Part shown: one piece after another, positions 4,501-44,731 of the stretch
Layout: every line of letters starts with the position of its first letter
Position numbering within the stretch: the stretch's first letter is position 1
Origin: Pegea sp. RAD2-039
Taxonomy: Eukaryota; Chordata; Thaliacea; Salpida; Salpidae
NCBI GenBank assembly: GCA_034620365.1
Contig: JAQGEQ010000380.1
Coordinates: forward strand, 3,906,001 to 3,970,000
Direction: 5' to 3'
Length of the DNA stretch: 64,000 bases
The notes under the pieces: generated by a model
Databases searched by the model: none
Told to the model about the DNA's origin: nothing
Seen by the model: only the letters and a program-made list of their open reading frames with translations
Made by a program: the position numbers and the translations under genes

Positions 4501-4959
4501 AATACAGTGAAATACAAAAGAACTAAAAAAATTTCACCGAATTTTCCTTTTCTCTGATGTTGTTTTCTTCTCAATCTTTCAGTTGCTTGTGAAGTAGAGA
4601 ACGCCATTTGAAGCAATTTACTGCTATATCTTCCCGTTTGCTGGTATTCAAAATTTTTTGTGTGCTTCAGTACTTTCTTGTTTGACATCTTTTGCTGTCA
4701 CTTTATGCGTTAAAAATGAAAACATTCATTACTTGAAAGTAAATTTTTAGTTATTTTTGTATGATATATAGAAAACAATAGAAAGCACTGAGACTAATTA
4801 CGATAAAAATGTTAAGCCTTAGGCTCGCAGGACATGTTATTTAAAATTCCAATCATGATTTAATCTCATCTAGTAAATGGTTTCAATAAAAAATACGCCA
4901 AAAAGTGTCAATAATTATGACATCACACAACGTAAGATAAATACCATAACCATTATTTG
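4501..4959. other. Intergenic, unassigned
   Basis: AT-rich. A minus-strand open frame (4428-4688) begins here, but its C-terminal third is antisense to the LINE tail and it resembles no family I know, so I do not call it a gene. Confidence 0.4.
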
Positions 4960-38994: not shown

Positions 38995-39960
38995 ATGATG
39001 AAAAAACTTAATATCCATCAAATAAAAAGAACTTTTATGTCTTCTCATTTACTTCAACAAGAAGCTTTAAACTTTGATATTCCATCAAATGTTATACTAA
39101 CAGGAATATGTAAGGAAAGATTAAGCAAAAAAACAGAACCTAAAAAGTTGCCAGGTACTCCAGAAAGTTGTGATAATATTATCAGGTACTGTAACAACTC
39201 TGTTCCACCCCATAAACAGCCAGTTAAGCAATGGGCTGATGATATATCTAAAGTTGAAGCAAGTTATGATCAAGTAGCTTGTCTTCATCCAAAATTGTTT
39301 GATGTTCATCCAAAAATGGATATTCTTTACCAAGTTGTAAAATGGCAAACACTTTATCGTGAAGTTGATTATGCTTGGTCTAGAACACGAGCTGAAATGG
39401 GTTTTGGTAAAAAAAAACCTTGGCCTCAAAAACATAGTGGTAGAAAGCGTCAGGGTGCTTCCAATACTCCTTTATGGAAAGGAGGTGGTATTTGTAATGG
39501 TCCGCGAGGTCCAAAATCTTTATTTTATAAGTTGGATGATGAAGTTTTAGTAGCAGGTCTTACATCAGCGTTGACAATCAAATATTTACAAAATGACTTG
39601 ATTATTGCTAGTCCAATGGAGTCTTCACCAGAAAATCATGATTTTCATCGAATGCTTGCTAATAGAGATATTGATTCTAATTCAATACTATTTGTACATA
39701 AAGACAACAGCTGTCCACAATATCTTGGCAATGCTCTTGAAAATGAAGTTTTTCAAAGTCTAATGCCTTTAAGTGCTTTAAATGTTTATAGTATTTTGAA
39801 ATATGATAAATTAGTTCTATCAATGGATATTCTAGATGAACTAGAAGATAAAATTATCTGGCAGCTTAGTCGGTATGATTGGCTAGGAAAACCTCATAAT
39901 TATTATAAAGGTTTACCTGGAAGAAAGTATGGAAACGACAATATTTTTATAGGATCTTGA
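38995..39960 (+). CDS. MRPL4: Mitochondrial ribosomal protein uL4m
   Basis: A 321-residue uninterrupted frame, close to the usual length of animal MRPL4 (about 310). The uL4 core is evident: FDVHPKMDILYQVVKWQ, then RAEMGFGKKKPWPQKHSGRK, then RQGASNTPLWKGGGICNGPR, matching the conserved loop that reaches into the large-subunit rRNA around the exit tunnel. The N-terminal 60 residues are basic and poor in acids, consistent with a mitochondrial presequence. Two adjacent Met codons (38995, 38998) could start; I take the first. It has no introns in the coding region, unlike its neighbours. It lies 360 bases upstream of mitochondrial aconitase in the same direction. Confidence 0.93.
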   Translation: MMKKLNIHQIKRTFMSSHLLQQEALNFDIPSNVILTGICKERLSKKTEPKKLPGTPESCDNIIRYCNNSVPPHKQPVKQWADDISKVEASYDQVACLHPKLFDVHPKMDILYQVVKWQTLYREVDYAWSRTRAEMGFGKKKPWPQKHSGRKRQGASNTPLWKGGGICNGPRGPKSLFYKLDDEVLVAGLTSALTIKYLQNDLIIASPMESSPENHDFHRMLANRDIDSNSILFVHKDNSCPQYLGNALENEVFQSLMPLSALNVYSILKYDKLVLSMDILDELEDKIIWQLSRYDWLGKPHNYYKGLPGRKYGNDNIFIGS

Positions 39961-40293
39961 AAATATTGAAGACTAATCTTATTTTAGTTTAAACTTTGTA
40001 TAGATAATATGCTAAAAAACTAAAGTATCTGATATACTTTATTATTTGTTTGCTGTCAATAAATTTCAAATAAGTATCAATGATAGAAAATAACTTTTTA
40101 CTTTATCTTGTTCTAACTGAAAACCTACTTGATTAGAATATTTGTAATCTCCAAGAATTTCTACTTTGATTGCATAATTTAACAAAAATACTTGTTTTGT
40201 TTCTTATTTCAAATCATGATTTCTTTCATATTTATTTTCAGATTATTATAGTTAAATAGTAAAGTTAACTCTTTAAATATAATATCAAAGAAT

Positions 40294-40316
40294 AGTCATC
40301 TTTGTCAGTGAGCAAA

Positions 40317-40322
<6 letters not shown>
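40294..40322 (+). promoter_or_regulatory. Iron-responsive element (IRE) across the aconitase start codon
   Basis: A canonical IRE hairpin in the mRNA sense. The loop is CAGTGA at 40306-40311. The upper stem is five pairs (TTTGT at 40301-40305 with GCAAA at 40312-40316; four Watson-Crick and one T-G). There is a single unpaired C at 40300, and a six-pair lower stem (AGTCAT at 40294-40299 with ATGGCT at 40317-40322, one wobble). The last block contains the ATG. Loop sequence, upper-stem length and bulged C all match the IRP1/IRP2 target consensus. Vertebrate ACO2 mRNAs carry a very similar hairpin at the same place. Bound iron regulatory protein would block translation when iron is low. Confidence 0.88.

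Positions 40323-44731
<4,409 letters not shown>

Follow-up and report, generated by a model that had tools for sequence, protein, structure and literature searches.

Structure of the ACO2 locus

The window (the whole 64-kb stretch of DNA that was analyzed) contains a complete gene for mitochondrial aconitase (ACO2), and a hairpin with the form of an iron-responsive element (IRE) lies over the start codon of this gene. The parts of the hairpin and of the gene are as follows.

40294..40322, plus strand: putative ACO2 IRE over the ACO2 start codon, recognized from sequence and predicted fold
40294-40299 with 40317-40322, plus strand: lower stem of the IRE, six of six pairs (A-U, G-C, U-G, C-G, A-U, U-A)
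40300, plus strand: bulged C, unpaired and five bases 5' of the loop, as in a canonical IRE
40301-40305 with 40312-40316, plus strand: upper stem (U-A, U-A, U-A, G-C, U-G)
40306-40311, plus strand: loop CAGUGA, which fits CAGUGN on a five-pair stem
40317-40319, plus strand: AUG of ACO2, inside the 3' half of the lower stem
40317..44731, plus strand: ACO2 coding region, 16 exons and 779 amino acids, from hand splicing and homologues
40317-40349, plus strand: exon 1a, the first of the 16 exons

The CAGTGA loop, five-pair upper stem, unpaired C, and six-pair lower stem including the ATG that the initial annotation described were all found where it had placed them. Its assignment of the start codon to an invertebrate mitochondrial aconitase also held, the invertebrate being a tunicate. 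Hand splicing gave 15 introns, all of the GT-AG type, and one complete open frame with the stop codon immediately after ...VQAQT. In the homologue search 8000 candidates sharing the most words were scored and the best 120 were listed. The top relative among these 120 was a JGI protein (P0001) that is 97% identical to the window ACO2 and whose first eleven residues differ from exon 1a at one position. The closest named relatives of similar length among the 120 were those of Phallusia (81%) and Ciona (80%), both tunicates; a 1298-amino-acid protein of the snail Batillaria (P0004; 76% identity over 91%) had a higher bit score than either.

Two further observations concern the gene and its surroundings. 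The frame of exon 15 remains open for 39 codons into intron 15 (44354-44473), so that an mRNA retaining this intron would encode a protein with an altered C terminus. On the same strand, 334 bases before the IRE, lies an intronless gene of the ribosomal protein L4 family (38995-39960; 321 amino acids).

Fold and rarity of the hairpin

The DNA letters at 40294-40322 are AGTCATCTTTGTCAGTGAGCAAAATGGCT, and the corresponding RNA is AGUCAU-C-UUUGU-[CAGUGA]-GCAAA-AUGGCU. RNAfold, a check that the initial annotation had suggested, predicted the canonical IRE shape for this RNA at -7.1 kcal/mol; when the RNA was folded within a longer piece (40242-40349), the eleven IRE pairs had probabilities of 0.56-0.73. 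The shuffle comparison that it had also proposed gave a divided answer. The folding energy is unremarkable (z = -1.79), being reached by 7 of 200 shuffles and, in a second run, by 91 of 2000, whereas the motif itself is rare: none of 2000 shuffles of the 29-mer yielded a canonical IRE. Dinucleotide-shuffled versions of the window contained a mean of 0.01 canonical IREs with six of six lower pairs per 64 kb, both strands counted. A canonical IRE was present in 2 of 200 such shuffled windows, and the unshuffled window contains one such element, over the start of ACO2.

The outcome with IRE covariance models was also mixed. In a 601-base search the Rfam model IRE_II (RF02253) aligned with the hairpin end to end (positions 1-31 of 31; E = 0.0026), with a score of 28.5 bits that falls below the gathering cut-off of 30 bits, which is the cut-off of a single profile and not a structural feature. 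Rfam at the gathering threshold gave no match anywhere in the 64-kb window. Genome-wide searches with RF00037 and RF02253, in which 82 and 87 candidates were scored, gave no matches. These searches are uninformative because they missed the ACO2 site as well.

A 22-base IRE core with two free positions had a single match in the 105.7-Mb genome, the ACO2 site. No further match was found in the genome within 3 mismatches, the reversed control gave 0, and viral contigs contained 0 matches of the core. A prokaryote genome collection (257 billion bases) yielded one match, an exact copy in a gammaproteobacterial MAG (L051 1288-1311; JAHZJK010000017.1) that sits opposite the coding strand of an RND-transporter-like gene. 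We judged this copy to have arisen by chance, and the lone prokaryote match thus shows the chance level for the core.

Base-by-base comparison with the human hairpin

The human ACO2 IRE that has been used for IRP1 binding is printed in PMC5561112. Aligned over the AUG in the same register, the window IRE and this human element share 24 of 29 bases; the initial annotation had stated that vertebrate ACO2 mRNAs carry a near-identical hairpin at the same place, and the hairpin is in this respect of the vertebrate type. Two of the five differences make up a compensatory change of the terminal pair, from C-G in human to A-U in the tunicate. Another adds a G-C pair that the human hairpin is without, a fourth turns the U-A pair under the loop into U-G, and the last is the free sixth loop base, which is A in the tunicate. 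The chance of the upper-stem sequence UUUGU, which both hairpins have, is about 0.002 by base composition.

Protein sequences offer a further, less direct comparison. Three of the 120 listed ACO2 proteins (P0050, P0107, and P0113), all from fish, have a predicted start farther upstream and thereby an extension that reads ...SLSVNKMA, and the window reads SLSVSKMA in the same frame. The fish extension may be a protein-level trace of the hairpin; it is compatible with the same bases there but is not proof of them. A protein-level search for relatives with a translated IRE returned one of nine candidates, P0001, which starts at the Met without the extension.

IRP1 and other candidate IREs in the genome

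PF00330 had ten matches in the genome, which fall in two loci, the window ACO2 and one on contig C20. The protein from the C20 locus has 888 amino acids. Among solved structures its best relatives were 3sn2/3snp, which bear the name cytoplasmic aconitate hydratase, together with the IRP1 structures 2b3x/2b3y; the IRP2 structure 6vcd ranks behind these. On this sequence evidence the C20 gene encodes IRP1. The Fe-S cysteines of IRP1 (437, 503, and 506) and its IRE contacts (269, 371, 379, 438, 439, 681, 682, 713, 780, 781, and 782) are given in PMC4184891, and 13 of these 14 positions are identical in the tunicate protein. The exception is the conservative replacement K379R, which the same source also reports for an earthworm IRP. 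Ser138, which is phosphorylated in human IRP1, is Ala in tunicate IRP1.

When 31 sequences, some of which overlap (286,453 bases in all), were searched for canonical IREs, only two distinct sites emerged: the ACO2 site, which appeared both in the window and in L047, and one in a ferritin gene on contig C76 that encodes 186 amino acids (PF00210).

L019 4868-4896: ferritin IRE, canonical fold, beginning 28 bases after TATAAA at 4835-4840

Rfam gave no match for the ferritin hairpin even at E<=10. Rfam is therefore a weak judge for this genome. No canonical IRE was found in the stretches scanned for the remaining six ferritin matches. Two of the ferritin matches in the genome, C6:4260839-4261015 and C44:1242-1418, have the same length, score, and stop and lie near the ends of different contigs; they are perhaps one locus assembled twice. 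No canonical IRE was present in a 9-kb stretch around the SDHB gene or in the stretches fetched for ALAS-like loci; an IRE in a tunicate ALAS is reported in PMC3904948. The ferroportin profile PF06963 had 0 matches in the genome and was also silent in every control genome, so this result is uninformative.

Spliced leader and mRNA 5' ends

Among the matches listed for the genome (105.7 Mb, 387 contigs) were 99 exact copies of the Ciona spliced leader (16 bases) with GT directly after it. Within 2 mismatches the leader had 315 + 270 matches, compared with 37 + 40 for the reversed control. At least 33 of the exact copies are arranged in tandem, one about every 199 bases (C4:1135044-1142219, part of which is L048), and in this array the leader is followed by GTAAGTG and then by a short inverted repeat. 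In five leader copies, of which up to 70 bases each were seen, the Ciona Sm motif AGCTTTGG did not occur, and Rfam gave no match at E<=1 on the spliced-leader stretches. The array is likely to consist of spliced-leader RNA genes. According to PMC7986045 this sequence is the only leader of Ciona, and at least 58% of expressed genes receive it. Together with the ACO2 relatives, the leader copies identify the animal as a tunicate. Because this animal has spliced-leader genes, the real 5' ends of its mRNAs may be trans-spliced.

Exact leader copies also occur scattered, in L049 and L050 (C1:936380-936540 and C6:247780-247940), where they are followed by GTTATAGG and not by GTAAGT; one of them has a second, partial leader. 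These are perhaps a repeat family or dead copies.

Three features bear on the possible 5' ends of the ACO2 and ferritin mRNAs.

40235..40241, plus strand: acceptor-like TTTTCAG upstream of the IRE, a possible spliced-leader or 5'-UTR acceptor
L019 4912-4918: acceptor-like TTTTCAG of the ferritin gene, located 3' of the IRE and 5' of the ATG at 4941, so that an mRNA spliced here would lack the IRE
40668..40694, plus strand: candidate ACO2 exon 1b in intron 1, with ATG at 40668 and the translation MVSIGRLFH, without an IRE

The TTTTCAG at 40235-40241 is the only match to the acceptor pattern in 40080-40320. It lies 52 bases from the IRE, which with a 16-base leader would place the hairpin 68 bases from the cap end. 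TTTTCAG occurs 18 times on the plus strand of the window, or 0.017 times per 60 bases. The IRE itself contains an acceptor-like CTTTGTCAG, and splicing there would destroy it.

Candidate exon 1b has nine codons in phase 0 and a gtaag donor and would continue in frame into exon 2. The flanking bases, ATCTT/CAAAATGG, match those of exon 1a except that ten bases of the IRE core are missing. The window has 1098 nine-codon ATG starts when both strands are counted. Four or more residues agree with exon 1a in 17 of them, a number that includes exon 1a itself; of these 17, three have a donor-like site in phase within 7-14 codons, namely exon 1a, exon 1b, and a start inside exon 6. The exon 1b start was not seen in the proteins of the listed relatives. 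These features are no more than suggestive of an alternative, IRE-less first exon.

It is conceivable that the choice of 5' end, through trans-splicing and an alternative first exon, gates the iron response of both mRNAs, a proposal that we regard as rather unlikely. For ACO2 the choice would be between the IRE-bearing exon 1a and the duplicated, IRE-less exon 1b, and for ferritin, use of the TTTTCAG at L019 4912-4918 as an acceptor would discard the IRE. If the proposal were true, a cell could produce each of the two mRNAs in an iron-responsive and an iron-insensitive form.

Origin of the hairpin

The hairpin is very probably a genuine ACO2 IRE that already existed in the last ancestor shared by tunicates and vertebrates and was passed on from there. 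We infer that the IRE is present in the ACO2 mRNA, that it is bound by IRP, that this binding represses translation, and that its ancestry is shared with the vertebrate element. A hairpin without function, formed by chance, might be suspected from the shuffles that equal its fold energy (7 of 200) and from the chance copy of the core in a gammaproteobacterial genome. However, with 0.01 canonical IREs expected per 64 kb, such an element would have had to arise precisely at the start codon of ACO2, the same gene in which vertebrates have an IRE. The core is also unique in the genome, and the genome has both IRP1 and a ferritin IRE, so chance is an extremely improbable explanation. A real IRE might instead have arisen independently in this lineage, as has been proposed for the IREs of other genes (PMC3904948). 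However, the agreement with the human hairpin (24 of 29 positions, UUUGU with CAAA opposite, and the same AUG register) exceeds what the fold and the IRP need. Identity also extends to bases left free by the fold, such as those of UUUGU; this favors inheritance over convergence, and we consider an independent origin quite unlikely.

The hairpin might also be mostly missing from the mature mRNA if transcription starts or the leader is joined inside or downstream of it, or if the mRNA starts with exon 1b. The spliced-leader genes in the genome, the possible IRE-less exon 1b, and the acceptor-like 3' part of the IRE, with CTTTGTCAG/TG in its loop, are consistent with such an arrangement. However, the better acceptor-like site is the upstream one at 40235-40241, the use of which would retain the IRE, and the human ACO2 hairpin has the same CTTTGTCAGTG. 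Moreover, it is difficult to see why a base-paired IRE should have been kept for so long if it lies outside the mRNA. Absence of the hairpin from most ACO2 mRNA therefore seems quite improbable.

An inherited ACO2 IRE agrees with one side of the choice that the initial annotation had left between deep conservation and striking convergence outside vertebrates. The sequence comparisons favor inheritance, with a narrower scope than that wording implies: they apply to the vertebrate sister group and not to invertebrates in general.

Proposed function and comparison with known IREs

In the established mechanism, cluster-free IRP1 binds an IRE and blocks translation, and cluster-bearing IRP1 releases it (PMC4112806, PMC4184891). 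In iron-poor cells of the tunicate, IRP1 without its Fe-S cluster would bind the ACO2 hairpin and keep the stem with the AUG closed, so that less mitochondrial aconitase would be made. Bound IRP1 would cover the start codon itself because the AUG lies inside the stem. In iron-replete cells, cluster-bearing IRP1 would free the RNA and act as a cytosolic aconitase.

If the hairpin is an inherited IRE, IRE control of mitochondrial aconitase predates the split of tunicates and vertebrates and the hairpin over the AUG has remained nearly unchanged, which suggests that iron and energy metabolism were linked in this way before vertebrates arose. The system found so far is compact, comprising a single IRE each in ACO2 and ferritin and two aconitase-family loci, of which one is IRP1, and could show how trans-splicing coexists with RNA regulators at the 5' end. 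No report of a tunicate ACO2 IRE was found in the open-access literature searched, a body that does not include the survey of Piccinelli and Samuelsson (2007).

The ferritin hairpin in the same genome, an IRE of the known 5'-UTR type, has the same canonical fold as the ACO2 hairpin. It lies wholly upstream of the AUG, in contrast to the ACO2 IRE, which lies over the start codon. The IRE in Drosophila SDHB mRNA (PMC8466369) resembles the ACO2 IRE in that it belongs to the mRNA of a TCA-cycle enzyme, although the gene differs. The closest likeness is to the vertebrate ACO2 IRE, with which the window IRE has in common the gene, the AUG register, the bulge, the CAGUGN loop, and the upper stem UUUGU. 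Human ACO2 is a weaker target of IRP1 than ferritin, with Kd values of 56-155 versus 4.6-19 nM at 5-30 degrees (PMC5561112). The predicted stability of the tunicate hairpin is -7.1 kcal/mol, compared with -2.8 kcal/mol for the human ACO2 IRE, a value also found in PMC12230718. Given this higher predicted stability, control of ACO2 may be tighter in this animal than in human.
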